Shown here: piece by piece, positions 13,233-56,252 of the stretch | Position numbering within the stretch: the stretch's first letter is position 1 | How the letters are laid out: the number at the start of each line of letters is the position of its first letter | Assembly (NCBI RefSeq): GCF_001742225.1 | Contig: NZ_CP017075.1 | Span: forward strand, 1,860,001-1,924,000 | Reading direction: 5' to 3' | Length of the DNA stretch: 64,000 nucleotides | From: Novosphingobium resinovorum | Lineage (GTDB): Bacteria; Pseudomonadota; Alphaproteobacteria; Sphingomonadales; Sphingomonadaceae | Position numbers and translations under genes: made by a program | The notes under the pieces: model-generated | What the model was told of the DNA's origin: nothing | Database searches by the model: none | Seen by the model: only the letters and a program-made list of their open reading frames with translations

Positions 13233-13363
13233 TTCCAATCCTTCCCTAAGTGCGGCGCCCTGTCTTGCAGGCTCCGTGCACTTGTGCAAGTTTTGCGAAT
13301 CACCCGCAAAATTCGTTTTTCGTGACTCGGACGTCATTTGCGGGTATCGGGCGCGCCAATCCC

Positions 13364-14743
13364 ATGGCTATCGAACTCCCCTCCCCGCCGAAAGTCGGCA
13401 TGGTCAGCCTCGGCTGCCCGAAAGCGCTCGTCGATTCAGAGCGCATCCTCACCCGCCTGCGCGCGGACGGCTACGACATGAGCCCGGACTATTCCGGTGC
13501 CGACGTCGTGCTCGTCAACACCTGCGGCTTCCTCGACTCCGCCAAGGAAGAAAGCCTTGCCGCCATCGGCGAGGCGATCGCCGAGAACGGCCGCGTGATC
13601 GTGACCGGCTGCATGGGCAACGAGGCCGAGGCGATCCGCGCCAAGTTCCCGCAAGTCCTCGCGGTGACCGGCGCGCATCAGTACGAGGCGGTCGTCGAGG
13701 CGGTGCACGAGGCGGCCCCGCCCGAACTCTCGCCCTACCTCGACCTGATCCCGCAGGCCTACGACGACGCCGGCGTGAAGCTGACGCCGCGCCACTACGG
13801 CTACCTCAAGATCTCCGAGGGCTGCAACCACGCCTGCTCGTTCTGCATCATCCCCAGCTTGCGCGGCAAGCTGGCAAGCCGCCGCATCGACGCGGTGCTG
13901 CGCGAGGCGGAGAAGCTCGTGCAGGCCGGGACGCGCGAACTGCTCGTCATCAGCCAGGACACTTCGGCCTACGGCGTCGACGTTCGCCACGAGGAACGCA
14001 TGTGGAAGGACCACGCGGTCCGCACCCACATGACCGACCTTGCCCGCGAACTCGGCGGTCTGAAGGACGGACAGGGCCGCAAGCCGTGGGTGCGCCTGCA
14101 CTACGTCTACCCCTACCCGCACGTCGACAACGTCATCCCGCTGATGGCCGAAGGGCTGATCACGCCCTACCTCGACATCCCGTTCCAGCACGCGGCGCCG
14201 TCGGTGCTCAAGGCGATGAAGCGCCCGGCGAACGAGGCCAAGGTGCTCGACCGCATCCACAAGTGGCGCGAGATCTGCCCGGACATCGCGATCCGCTCCA
14301 GCTTTGTCGTCGGCTTCCCCGGCGAGACCGAGGCGGACTTCCAGTACCTGCTCGACTGGCTCGACGAAGCGCAGCTCGACCGCGTCGGCGCCTTCCGCTT
14401 CGAACCGGTCGAGGGTGCCTCGGCGAACCACCTGCCCGATCCGGTGCCGGAAGAGGTCAAGGAAGAGCGCTACCAGCGGATCATGGAAAAGACCGCCGCG
14501 ATCAGCGCCGCGAAGCTCGCCGCCAAGGTCGGCCGCGTGCTGCCCGTCATCATCGACGAAGTGGGCGAAGCGGACGAAGACGGTGACGTCGGTGCAACCG
14601 GCCGCTCGCAGGCGGACGCGCCAGAGATCGACGGAAACGTCTTCCTGCGCGACGCTGGTGGGCTGCAAGTCGGTGATATCGTTGAAGTTCTCGTCGAAGA
14701 TGCGGACGAGCACGACCTCTATGGGGCCGTTTTACAAAGTTGA
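13364..14743 (+). CDS. rimO: Ribosomal protein S12 methylthiotransferase RimO
   Basis: The 459-residue protein starts at ATG 13364 ([20 protein letters not shown]). Three N-terminal UPF0004 cysteines (18, 54, 83) and the radical-SAM triad Cys154/Cys158/Cys161 in CNHACSFC bind two [4Fe-4S] clusters. The SPSLRG-like segment after the triad and a C-terminal TRAM domain match RimO, which methylthiolates Asp88 of S12. MiaB is the close alternative, but [12 protein letters not shown] and [12 protein letters not shown] favour RimO. Confidence 0.95.
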
Positions 14744-14766: not shown

Positions 14767-14783
14767 GTTGCAAGACATGCAAC
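14767..14783 (+). promoter_or_regulatory. Upstream palindrome of small-RNA unit 1
   Basis: GTTGCAAGACATGCAAC is an inverted repeat (GTTGCA...TGCAAC). An equivalent palindrome lies exactly the same distance (72 bases) upstream of the duplicated block in unit 2, so it probably belongs to the promoter or is an operator. Confidence 0.5.
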
Positions 14784-14794
14784 TTATGTAATGG

Positions 14795-14904
14795 TTTTCG
14801 CGTTTGCGGGAATCACCCTCCGAAAGCATATGGGGGGTGCCTTTCAGGCATCCTCTCCCAAAACTTCTACAGGGCTGGTCTTCGGACCGGCCCTTTCTTT
14901 TTGC
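14795..14904 (+). ncRNA. Putative small RNA, unit 1, with strong terminator
   Basis: The last 66 bases (14839-14904) are identical to 15813-15878 on the other side of tenA. They hold a single-stranded-looking CCTCTCCC stretch (14852-14859) and a terminator stem GGGCTGGTC-TTCG-GACCGGCCC followed by TTTCTTTTT. Upstream, TTTTCGCGTTTGC and a GANTC site are shared with unit 2. The conserved stretch lacks an open frame, so a noncoding RNA is favoured. The 5' end is not known; the start given is the beginning of the conserved block. A CU-rich loop plus terminator resembles alphaproteobacterial anti-Shine-Dalgarno sRNAs, which is an analogy only. Confidence 0.6.
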
Positions 14905-15033
14905 CTGCGTTCCGCGCCGCGAGGCATGGTCCCCCGGCACTTTCGTCATTGCGATCGCAGCGACGAAGATGGTCATTCGCAATTGATCCTGCTTTAAGCG
15001 CGCCCGACTTTCGCATCCGAGGGAACTTCGCGC

Positions 15034-15696
15034 ATGAGCTTTTGCCAAACGGTCTGGGAAGACGTCGCACCGCTGCGCCGGGCGATCCTCGATCACCCCT
15101 TCCTGAACGAACTGGCCGCCGGAACGCTCGCGCCCGAAAGTTTCCGGCATTACATCGTGCAGGACAGCCTCTACCTCGCCGAGTATTCCCGCGCCCTCGC
15201 TCTCGCCGCGGCGCGCGCACCGACCGCGAGCGGCCGCCTCGAATTCTCCGACGGAGCCAAAGTCGCCGTGCAGGTCGAGGAAGCGTTGCACCAGGCATTC
15301 TTCGCCCAGTTCGGCGTCACCGCCGAGATCGCGGCGGCCAGCGAGCCGACGCCCGCATGCCTCGGCTACACCAGCTACCTGTCCGCACTGGCCGCAACGC
15401 GCAGCTACGAGGAACTGATCGCGGGCATCCTCCCGTGCTTCTGGGTCTACTGGGAGGTCGGCTGCGACGTGAAGCCGCGCGCCGCCTCGCCCAATCCCTA
15501 TGCCGCCTGGATCGACACGTACGCCGCGCCCGCGTTCGGCGAAGCGACCGACCGGGTCCGCGCCCTTGTCGATGAAGCCGCTCAAAACGCCACGGCCGCG
15601 ACGCGCGCGGCCATGGTCACCGCGTTCCGCAATGCAACGCGCTTCGAATGGATGTTCTGGGATTCCGCCTATCATCGCGCAATCTGGCCGATCTGA
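15034..15696 (+). CDS. tenA: TenA family aminopyrimidine aminohydrolase (thiaminase II)
   Basis: The 220-residue protein is a helical TenA protein. Its key residues fall at the numbering of B. subtilis TenA: Asp44 (IVQDSLY), nucleophile Cys135 (GILPCFWVYW) and Glu205 (RFEWMFWD). The enzyme hydrolyses aminomethyl-pyrimidine breakdown products of thiamin so that the pyrimidine can be salvaged, or cleaves thiamin. No other thiamin genes are adjacent. It lies between the two duplicated small-RNA-like units, so the pair may have duplicated around it. Confidence 0.9.
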   Translation: MSFCQTVWEDVAPLRRAILDHPFLNELAAGTLAPESFRHYIVQDSLYLAEYSRALALAAARAPTASGRLEFSDGAKVAVQVEEALHQAFFAQFGVTAEIAAASEPTPACLGYTSYLSALAATRSYEELIAGILPCFWVYWEVGCDVKPRAASPNPYAAWIDTYAAPAFGEATDRVRALVDEAAQNATAATRAAMVTAFRNATRFEWMFWDSAYHRAIWPI

Positions 15697-15740
15697 CGTG
15701 CAACCGCACAAAACCACGGTTTCCCACGTACACGCTTCAA

Positions 15741-15757
15741 GTTGCATTCCTTGCAAC
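15741..15757 (+). promoter_or_regulatory. Upstream palindrome of small-RNA unit 2
   Basis: GTTGCATTCCTTGCAAC matches the palindrome of unit 1 in both arms and in spacing to the conserved block (72 bases), with a different centre. Confidence 0.5.
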
Positions 15758-15768
15758 TTTGCTCAATC

Positions 15769-15878
15769 TTTTCGCATTTGCAGCAAAGCGGGATTCCGAA
15801 CATAAGGAACTCGCCTTTCAGGCATCCTCTCCCAAAACTTCTACAGGGCTGGTCTTCGGACCGGCCCTTTCTTTTTGC
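15769..15878 (+). ncRNA. Putative small RNA, unit 2, with strong terminator
   Basis: Second copy of the unit at 14795-14904. The 66-base 3' part is identical, including CCTCTCCC at 15826-15833 and the TTCG-loop terminator. The 44 bases before it keep the same length as in unit 1 but have diverged, apart from TTTTCGCATTTGC, a GANTC site and TCCGAA. Conservation of the 3' half and promoter with drift between them fits a functional sRNA family. It lies between tenA and the CinA-type gene. Confidence 0.6.
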
Positions 15879-15940
15879 ACCCGCGAGCAGATTTGCGAGC
15901 CCCCTAGCCCCGCGCGCCCATTTGCCCTAGCGATACCGCC

Positions 15941-16702
15941 ATGGCTTCCCAGCAGCGAATCTTCACCGCCGCCCTCGTCGTCATCGGCGACGAAATCCTC
16001 TCGGGCCGCACGCACGACAAGAACATCGCCCAGGTCGCCACCTGGCTGCAGATCCAGGGTATCCGCCTGAAGGAAGTGCGCGTCGTCGCCGACGAGACGC
16101 CATCCATCGTCGAGGCGGTGAACACCCTGCGCGCGCGCAACGACTACTGCTTCACCACCGGCGGCATCGGCCCCACGCATGACGACATCACCGTGGACGC
16201 CATCGCCGAGGCGCTGGGCGTGCCGGTCATCGTCCATCCCGAAGCCCGCGCGATCCTGGAAGAATACTACACAACGCGCGGCGGCCTGACCGAGGCACGC
16301 CTACGGATGGCGCGCACGCCGGACGGTGCCAGCCTGATCCCCAATCGCTACACCGGCGCGCCGGGTATCCGCTGCGGCAACGTGTTCATCATGGCCGGCG
16401 TGCCCAGCATCACCGCAGGGATGCTCGACGCGCTCTCCGGCCAGCTTGAGGGCGGCGCGCCGTTGCTGTCCGAGACGGTCGGGTGCTGGGTGGGTGAAAG
16501 CGAAGTGGCCGAACTGCTGCGCGAAACCGAAAAGACGTTCGAGACCTGCCAGATCGGCTCCTACCCGTTCTGGGGCGAAGGGCGCACCGGCGCGAATTTC
16601 GTGATCCGTTCGGTCAGCGCCGAGGATCTCGCCGCCTGCACCCGCGCGCTCGTCGAAGGACTGGCGGCGATGGGCCGCCCGGCGGTGCCCGGTGGCATTT
16701 GA
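15941..16702 (+). CDS. CinA-type MoaB/Mog (molybdopterin-binding) domain protein
   Basis: The 253-residue protein begins with the molybdopterin-binding fold signature of CinA: VIGDEILSGRTHDKNIAQVA (residues about 11-30) and FTTGGIGPTHDDITVDAIAE (about 68-87). It lacks the C-terminal NMN deamidase domain of full-length CinA (about 420 residues), so it is the short, stand-alone form common in alphaproteobacteria. Full CinA hydrolyses pyridine-nucleotide derivatives; the role of this short form is not established. It overlaps the next reading frame by 11 bases. Confidence 0.88.
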   Translation: MASQQRIFTAALVVIGDEILSGRTHDKNIAQVATWLQIQGIRLKEVRVVADETPSIVEAVNTLRARNDYCFTTGGIGPTHDDITVDAIAEALGVPVIVHPEARAILEEYYTTRGGLTEARLRMARTPDGASLIPNRYTGAPGIRCGNVFIMAGVPSITAGMLDALSGQLEGGAPLLSETVGCWVGESEVAELLRETEKTFETCQIGSYPFWGEGRTGANFVIRSVSAEDLAACTRALVEGLAAMGRPAVPGGI

Positions 16703-54978: not shown

Positions 54979-54992
54979 AGGGAGAGGACGAC

Positions 54993-56252
54993 ATGCCTAT
55001 CGACGCCGCCAATCCCGTGCCCCCCAGCTTCCCGCGCAATGTCGGGATGGACCAGGTGCCCGCCCACGTTCCGCCCGAACTGATCCGCCAGTCGGGCCTC
55101 ACCGTCGGGCCGGACTTCCTTGCGAACCCGCACGACTTCATGGCCGCGCTGCATGAAAAGCAGCCGCCCATCTACTACGACGTCAGCCCGATGGGGAACA
55201 TGTGGCACCTCATCAAGCATGAGGACGCGCTGTTCGGCCTGCGCCACCCGGACATCTTCTCGAACGAGGGCGCCACGCCCTTCCCGCGCGATCCGGACGA
55301 CTATTTCTACTTCATCCCGATCGAGATCGACCCGCCGCATCACCGCAAGTACCGCAACATCGTCGATCCGGTGTTCAGCCCGCAGGGCGTGCTCAAGCTG
55401 GAGGAACAGATCCGCCAGCGCGCCAACGGGTTGATCGACGAGATCGAGGCGAAAGTCGCCGCCGGAGGGACTTGCGAGTTCACCGAGGACTACGGCCGCC
55501 CGCTGCCGGTCACGGTGTTCCTCGACATCATGGGCCTGCCACAGGACATGCGCGACGAGTTCGTGGACTGGGCGATGAAACTCCTCCATTCGAACGACCG
55601 CGCGGTGATGGGCGAGACGATGGGCAAGATCACCGCCTATCTGCGCCAGGCGATCGAGGACAAGAAGGCGAATCCCGACGACGGCGTCGTCAGCCGCATC
55701 GCCCACTCCGCGCCGGACGGCGTGCCGCTCTCGGACAAGGAGATCTTCGGCTTCGCCTGCTTCCTGTTCATCGCCGGGCTCGACACCGTGTTCGCGACGC
55801 TGAACAATATCTGGCTCTACCTTGCCGAGAATCCGGACAAGCTCGCGGAAATCCACAGCCGCCCGCAGGACATCGACAAGATCGTCGAAGAACTGCTGCG
55901 CCGCTGGTCGGTGACGTTCTCGGGTCGGGTCCTCGACAAGGACTACGAGATGCGCGGCGTGCAGATGAAGAAGGGGGACCGCGTCACCTTTGTCCTGCCC
56001 GCCTGCAACTTCGACCCCGAAGTGTTCCCGAACCCCAAGGAGGTGGACTTCGACCGCCCGCGCAAGACGATCCTGGCCTTCACCGTAGGCGTCCACAGTT
56101 GCATGGGCGCACACCTCGCCCGGCTGGAAGTGAAGATCGCGCTGCAGGAATGGCTGAAGCGCATCCCGGCATTCTCGGTGAAGCCGGGCACGCGGATCGA
56201 GTACCGCCCCGGCGGCGTCATCGGGCCGGAGCACCTGCCGCTGGTCTGGTAG
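54993..56252 (+). CDS. Cytochrome P450 (CYP101-like)
   Basis: The 419-residue protein is read from ATG 54993, five bases after GGGAGAGG. It has the full I-helix motif AGLDT (261-265), ExxR (Glu300-Leu-Leu-Arg303), and heme-binding FTVGVHSCMG (Cys370). Sequence character (putidaredoxin-type partner, N-terminal PPSFPRNVGMDQVPAHVP) recalls terpene or camphor hydroxylases, which is only a suggestion. It follows the ferredoxin gene closely. Confidence 0.93.
   Translation: MPIDAANPVPPSFPRNVGMDQVPAHVPPELIRQSGLTVGPDFLANPHDFMAALHEKQPPIYYDVSPMGNMWHLIKHEDALFGLRHPDIFSNEGATPFPRDPDDYFYFIPIEIDPPHHRKYRNIVDPVFSPQGVLKLEEQIRQRANGLIDEIEAKVAAGGTCEFTEDYGRPLPVTVFLDIMGLPQDMRDEFVDWAMKLLHSNDRAVMGETMGKITAYLRQAIEDKKANPDDGVVSRIAHSAPDGVPLSDKEIFGFACFLFIAGLDTVFATLNNIWLYLAENPDKLAEIHSRPQDIDKIVEELLRRWSVTFSGRVLDKDYEMRGVQMKKGDRVTFVLPACNFDPEVFPNPKEVDFDRPRKTILAFTVGVHSCMGAHLARLEVKIALQEWLKRIPAFSVKPGTRIEYRPGGVIGPEHLPLVW

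Follow-up and report, generated by a model that had tools for sequence, protein, structure and literature searches.

What are two blocks of DNA, identical base for base, doing on either side of a tenA gene in Novosphingobium resinovorum, and what controls them? A reading of the sequence alone had proposed that the blocks, at 14839-14904 and 15813-15878 on the forward strand of the window (the whole stretch of DNA that was analysed, 64,000 nucleotides), are two paralogous small RNA (sRNA) genes with a conserved promoter. The two are indeed identical (66 of 66 nucleotides), and the Rfam covariance search that the same reading had suggested matched both to RF00519 (suhB/MmgR/alpha-r8), with 54.5 bits over 14832-14908 for copy 1 and 49.1 bits over 15806-15882 for copy 2; the gathering cut-off of the family is 41 bits. 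Because the covariance score is the curated family test, we file the twins under RF00519; the sRNA itself is already known. The predicted fold of both copies agrees with the TTCG-capped stem, T-run and CU-rich stretch described earlier: a short 5' hairpin is followed by an unpaired CU-rich AUCCUCUCCCAAAACUUCUACA and a strong UUCG-capped terminator, which is the RF00519 architecture of a weak 5' hairpin, an unpaired CU-rich seed and a rho-independent terminator. The seed of copy 1, CAUCCUCUCCC, occupies 14849-14859, and its terminator stem starts at 14871 and runs into the T-run; the predicted fold z-scores are -5.27 for 14839-14902 and, in 67-nucleotide versions, -5.40 for copy 1 and -5.00 for copy 2. 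Excerpts of PMC12559287 state the 10-mer UUUCCUCCCU for SisA-D of Caulobacter and call it family-wide; the exact 10-mer is absent from the twins, which carry AUCCUCUCCC in its place and CAUCCUCUCCC as the seed, so that under this stricter wording they are, judged by sequence, a sphingomonad variant.

The palindrome GTTGCA-N5-TGCAAC, reported to lie exactly 72 bases from each block, was found where expected: the box of copy 1 (GTTGCAAGACATGCAAC, 14767-14783, forward strand, centre 14775, about -64) and that of copy 2 (GTTGCATTCCTTGCAAC, 15741-15757, forward strand, centre 15749) each begin exactly 72 nucleotides ahead of their own block. This 17-bp palindrome is beyond chance, since it occurs three times in 6.9 Mb, two of these at the twins, compared to none for a backwards control. 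The TTTTCGCrTTTGC element is likewise present upstream of both copies, as TTTTCGCGTTTGC (14795-14807) and TTTTCGCATTTGC (15769-15781), and opens the predicted forward-strand core promoters, namely, 14795-14832 for copy 1 (-35 TTGCGG at 14804-14809, N17, -10 CATATG at 14827-14832) and 15769-15806 for copy 2 (-35 TTGCAG at 15778-15783, N17, -10 CATAAG at 15801-15806). Each twin is predicted to have its own sigma70-like promoter, and since the hexamers place the start near the first base of the block, the predicted RNA is about 62-66 nucleotides long; SuhB of Sphingopyxis granuli is, in excerpts of PMC6563040, a 61-nucleotide expressed RNA that works with Hfq. The GANTC site that had been counted among the shared elements is out of register at the twins (GAATC at 14810-14814, or -29, vs GATTC at 15792-15796, or -21). 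The box itself, at -71 to -57 from the predicted RNA start, is a 4-5-4 dyad with T-N11-A centred near -64. LysR-type recognition sites usually have this form and this position, and the palindrome is probably a site of this type. A CRP/FNR-type site is disfavoured by the odd-numbered centre of the box, which speaks against sites of that class.

The box is common across the genus. RF00519 is detectable at E 1e-4 in all 41 sampled Novosphingobium genomes (143 matches in total), and 131 distinct units with a core were compiled from 30 best-match loci, pattern loci and 80 stretches, leaving out those that were unfetched, lacked a searched core, had less than 140 nucleotides upstream or were duplicates. 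In 109 of these units, 8 or more of the 10 box bases lie exactly at -71 from the first GCC of the RNA; in 91 units it is 9 or more, and in 45 all 10 (copy 1 has all 10 at this genus-typical offset). At other offsets, the mean is 0.45 units with at least 8 box bases, with a maximum of 12, at -41, and mononucleotide shuffles attain 8 box bases in 0.15% of cases. The signal at -41 probably reflects TCGCA, which is half a box located 30 bp downstream of the box, over the -35 element, and could plausibly be where a LysR tetramer makes an additional contact. In 114/131 units, no TTGC other than that at -35 from the RNA start occurs between -50 and -26. GANTC, by contrast, is found within the last 40 nucleotides ahead of the RNA in only 35/131 units at scattered positions (the commonest, -29, occurs 11 times), and we therefore rejected GANTC/CcrM control as a conserved feature.

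Beyond the genus, the same arrangement is also seen in the family, although exact full boxes are infrequent there. The exact full box, GTTGCA-N5-TGCAAC-N15..23-TTTGC, yields 16 hits in 8/41 genomes of the genus (control, 0) and 9 hits in 7/249 genomes of the family (control, 1), and the looser fixed-spacing pattern, box-N20-WTTGC matched exactly, yields 35 family hits in 24/149 genomes (reversed control, 1). When named genomes were scanned for the box together with the RNA, at least 120 stretches came up; among the matches listed are Sphingomonas, Sphingobium, Novosphingobium, Zymomonas, Erythrobacter-like genera and others, titled genera that we take to be Sphingomonadales, as well as four unassigned alphaproteobacterial MAGs and one record titled Microvirga. 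The latter (L272, Microvirga sp. SRT01) has a sphingomonad box and RNA, and is possibly a mislabelled assembly. In a class-wide sample, RF00519 was found at E 1e-6 in 40/86 genomes, and at least 8 box bases at the matching place were seen in none of the 29 alphaproteobacterial alpha-r8 loci outside the family; anywhere in 170 nucleotides, 4/29 loci have at least 8 (5.6% in shuffles), and one reaches 9.

The genome of N. resinovorum (6.9 Mb, 5 contigs) encodes five RF00519 copies: the twins, C1:3180767, C2:936187 and C3:894268. Four of the five exceed the cut-off, and the remaining one scores 39.9 bits; the perfect box belongs to the twins only, the other three scoring 6, 3 and 6 of 10. The third occurrence of the 17-bp palindrome, at C1:2479321, has the same 19-nucleotide spacing to TTTGC and is followed by an open reading frame (ORF) of 26 amino acids. 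This hydrophobic ORF (MTLVHRTFGFAAALG..., with homologs; L011/L056, also L043 and L053) adjoins a gene that we presume to be guaA. More generally, TTGCA-N5-TGCAA occurs 8 times in this genome vs once in the reversed control, and 4 of the 8 sites have the fixed spacing to WTTGC, the fourth of these preceding a 90-aa ORF with a signal-peptide-like start. Among the 30 distinct readable fixed-spacing sites in loci L071-L100, an alpha-r8 core follows at 13 and is missing at 17. Downstream of the box, there are ORFs of 24-27 aa in other family genomes (L065, L069, L073, L076, L077) and proteins of 90-107 aa with signal-peptide-like starts (L063 and L070 on the reverse strand, L078, L079, L088). Five full-length small box-linked proteins gave no Pfam match, so their identification as UrcA was dropped for want of Pfam support in these five. 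Box-bearing promoters are also located ahead of two further genes (L066, reverse strand, and L092), presumably a 3-oxoacid CoA-transferase subunit and an alternative oxidase, respectively.

A candidate regulator emerges from the relatives. In G064, a Zymomonas to judge from its protein, which is 100% identical to that of L327, one of the 10 genes with LysR-type helix-turn-helix matches is divergent from the alpha-r8 gene, with the box in between. Among the matches listed, an orthologous LysR-type gene occupies this divergent position, with the box between it and the sRNA gene, in 29/120 stretches, its start lying 94-204 nucleotides from the RNA core, and the remaining 91/120 box-bearing stretches are without an adjacent LysR gene; at least 400 nucleotides upstream are visible in 112/120. 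By genus, again among the matches listed, the linked gene is found in 13/27 stretches of Sphingomonas, 2/27 of Sphingobium, 2/2 of Zymomonas, 2/2 of Rhizorhabdus and 0/29 of Novosphingobium. All regulator hits above 80 bits in the at least 120 listed stretches are at the divergent position, and none elsewhere. The ortholog matches once, at E 1e-40 or better, in 40/41 genomes of the genus, two of these matches being partial, and in 31/31 good genomes; in N. resinovorum, it is encoded at C1:3531944-3532807, behind ORFs that we take to be ybeY and corC, and is only about 48% identical to the Zymomonas protein. No Rfam match was found at the regulator locus in 30 Novosphingobium loci, that of N. 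resinovorum included (about 1.5 kb on each side where the contig allows), so the link between regulator and box rests on relatives.

In a maximum-likelihood tree, 28 sRNA-linked and 30 Novosphingobium proteins comprise one clade (support 100/99), separate from 28 homologs of the class and 9 other LysR proteins of Zymomonas, and within it the Novosphingobium group is placed beside four linked proteins, one of them from Parasphingorhabdus (99/97), in a tree whose bootstrap had not settled and whose outsiders include long branches. The helix motif ALSRR is common to the linked and the Novosphingobium consensus sequences and differs in the other class homologs. Since the Novosphingobium proteins nest beside linked ones in one clade, the linkage looks ancestral, and the sequences are most simply read as an ancestral gene pair that came apart in Novosphingobium. 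A class sample of 115 genomes contains 42 with a match at E 1e-20; outside the family, identity peaks at 35%, with none above this value at full length. In two genomes (L348 of G031 and L353 of G006), a box-like 15-mer with 9/10 bases is present about 62 nucleotides ahead of the regulator gene match, possibly a case of autoregulation. At L083 (G139), the convergent neighbour of a fixed-spacing box encodes a 34% identical LysR protein that falls just outside the main clade.

We consider it probable that the twins are LysR-activated, anti-RBS alpha-r8 sRNAs with their own promoters. This explanation builds on the RNA family, the promoter layout, the fixed-spacing box and the LysR gene, with its clade and the linkage seen in relatives, from which we infer binding, activation, effector, targets, Hfq dependence and conversion. 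The twins would be two trans-acting, probably Hfq-dependent alpha-r8 genes, each transcribed from its own sigma70 promoter. The LysR-type protein encoded at C1:3531944-3532807 would bind the TGCA-N5-TGCA box, whose centre is near -64, would probably touch the TCGCA half-repeat 30 bp downstream, over the -35 element, as well, and on some signal would recruit RNA polymerase and so activate the sRNA promoters. The unpaired CAUCCUCUCCC would then base-pair around ribosome-binding sites and start codons that resemble GGGAGAGGAUG, repressing translation; the two copies would raise the dose or split promoter control, and their perfect identity would stem from recent gene conversion. A target scan of the 64-kb window found 10 places with at least 9 matching bases. 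Two of them correspond to the opposite strand of the sRNA genes, and a single one coincides with a ribosome-binding site, too few for any target to be claimed. A 9-nucleotide complement of the seed, GGGAGAGGA at 54980-54995, is located just ahead of an ORF that starts at 54993, which we take to encode a cytochrome P450 and which is a possible target by sequence.

The alternatives that have to be weighed differ in how much of this they accept. According to the one that grants the reality of the sRNAs and the box, another regulator, e.g. of the Lrp/AsnC type, binds the box, and the LysR neighbour is a bystander. Sites of the Lrp/AsnC type are about 15 bp long with an A/T-rich centre, the centre of the box is A/T-rich in many relatives (by reading), 15-bp dyads can be used by other regulator families too, and the LysR gene is unlinked in the 30 Novosphingobium loci read. 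Against it stand the repeatedly divergent position of one orthologous gene (in 29/120 among the matches listed), the dyad with T-N11-A near -64, the identity of at most 35% at full length of all matches outside the family in the class sample, and the absence of the box at the matching place in 29/29 alpha-r8 loci outside the family; we regard this alternative as unlikely.

Less likely still, the LysR protein represses the twins, or toggles both ways depending on its effector. A centre near -64, ahead of the -35 element, is the position of an activator site, which argues against repression, as does the case of Sinorhizobium meliloti, where LsrB drives abcR1 and loss of a predicted upstream motif costs more than 22-fold (PMC8844928, in part); however, the sign of regulation is unreadable from sequence, and LysR proteins can do both (PMC7486931, in part). 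Finally, each block ends in a terminator directly behind a gene, as would be the case if the blocks were dispersed terminator repeats, or the 3' ends of rimO and tenA, without a function of their own. This possibility, in the form of a terminator repeat lacking a conserved promoter, had been raised at the outset as the one that would undo the sRNA reading; it is now very improbable given that both blocks match RF00519 and that the distance between box and RNA is fixed in 109/131 genus units, and the reading of the blocks as paralogous sRNA genes, two in number and with a conserved promoter, is supported.

By Rfam score, the twins belong together with MmgR of S. meliloti, SisA-D of Caulobacter and SuhB of Sphingopyxis granuli TFA, with which they share the 5' hairpin, the unpaired CU-rich anti-SD seed, the terminator and the presence of several siblings per genome. 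SisA represses its targets through its seed (PMC12559287, in part) and SuhB, with Hfq, represses thnR (PMC6563040, in part); unlike the siblings described here, which share an upstream box, SisA-D are reported in the excerpts of PMC12559287 to have no common upstream motif. As to PhaR, its sites are TGC-N3-GCA (PMC12542648 and PMC6201568, both in part), and because the -64 box is TGC-N7-GCA, we rejected the idea that it belongs to PhaR/AniA. PhaR binds the mmgR promoter of S. meliloti (PMC12542648, in part), and a PhaR-like TGCRNYGCR is found near the start in 17/29 alpha-r8 loci outside the family (0.6% in shuffles), in 35/126 units from box-selected stretches (33 of them at -19; among the matches listed), in only 12/131 genus units and in neither twin. 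Because of the binding of PhaR at mmgR and the sites in relatives, PHB sensing is perhaps an older input, which may have been largely dropped by Novosphingobium.

The closest regulatory parallels are two. In enterobacteria, the LysR-type GcvA adjoins and controls GcvB, a broad mRNA-pairing sRNA; likewise, the regulator described here is, by sequence, of the GcvA type, although the Zymomonas protein scores 145.5 bits, below the GcvA model cut-off of 288, and in relatives it lies next to an sRNA of the mRNA-pairing type, although GcvB is a longer RNA unrelated to alpha-r8. In Rhizobiales, the LsrB gene lies beside trxB; no LysR gene was seen among the ORFs around the best trxB match of N. resinovorum (by reading), and this candidate was discarded. 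The LsrB/VtlR-AbcR system of Rhizobiales also combines a LysR-type gene with adjoining anti-SD sRNAs (PMC8844928, in part), and VtlR activates three small-protein genes in Brucella abortus (PMC7486931, in part), just as the box described here precedes ORFs of 24-27 and 90-107 aa. Nevertheless, AbcR (alpha-r15) is a different sRNA family from RF00519, and the VtlR box GCAT-N3-TG-N3-T (PMC7486931, in part) is unmatched by either twin box, by eye on both strands. None of the 28 class homologs in the tree falls inside the regulator clade, and excerpts of PMC11975290 contain neither an LsrB consensus or binding motif nor AbcR.

In the open-access literature, we found no report of a LysR regulator of alpha-r8 RNAs in sphingomonads, so, within this literature, the regulator link appears new and the RNA family known. 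On balance, we favour the broader view that the Sphingomonadales possess a dedicated LysR protein of their own, which acts as master switch for the alpha-r8 sRNAs and also for a small regulon of tiny proteins that are secreted or lie in the membrane. Such a system, often with promoters that also have PhaR-like sites, would be a counterpart to GcvA-GcvB and LsrB-AbcR that was assembled independently. In Sphingopyxis, aromatic degradation is restrained by SuhB, whose level tracks the growth rate, and the excerpts of PMC6563040 name no transcription factor for it; if the broader view is correct, the LysR switch is a candidate for the as yet missing connection of carbon status to catabolite repression of the SuhB type. 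With a candidate regulator, a site and one promoter layout in hand, the control of SuhB becomes directly testable in organisms of bioremediation and ethanol production. The parallel also points to a circuit, made up of a LysR-type gene next to an anti-SD sRNA, that recurs across separate lineages.

The history of the twins can be traced through their neighbours, all on the forward strand: a gene at 13250-14743 (Pfam Radical_SAM, UPF0004, TRAM_2), which we take to be rimO from its domains and recall, tenA at 15034-15696 between the twins (Pfam TENA_THI-4, 2.9e-43) and a CinA/MoCF-domain gene at 15941-16702 (Pfam MoCF_biosynth, 3.3e-26). In the Novosphingobium tandem loci read, the alpha-r8 pair comes after a rimO homolog, and a cinA-like gene often comes next after the tandem genes; neighbouring copies are mostly 173-976 bp apart, one pair 2,930. 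That the units flank tenA, as the sequence-only reading put it, is accurate here, but tenA itself is incidental because, among the tandem loci read, it lies between the copies only in this genome and in N. resinovorum VKM B-1172 (G029), whose locus is nearly identical to the one described here; no recognisable tenA was found in the 805 bp between the copies at L045 of G025 (best hit E 0.069 over 11 residues). The two RNA copies are 100% identical in the same two genomes only, compared to 82-91% within 7 other tandem genomes, which lends no support to concerted evolution of tandem copies in general, and the identity between the promoters of the two copies is 51-67% within nine tandem genomes. 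For these reasons, recent conversion over the RNA appears to be the cause of the identity, and the twins are probably, to judge from their sequences, old duplicates homogenised recently over the RNA, with strong selection as a possible alternative cause. In some Novosphingobium (L047, L150, L277), three alpha-r8 copies are lined up behind rimO.
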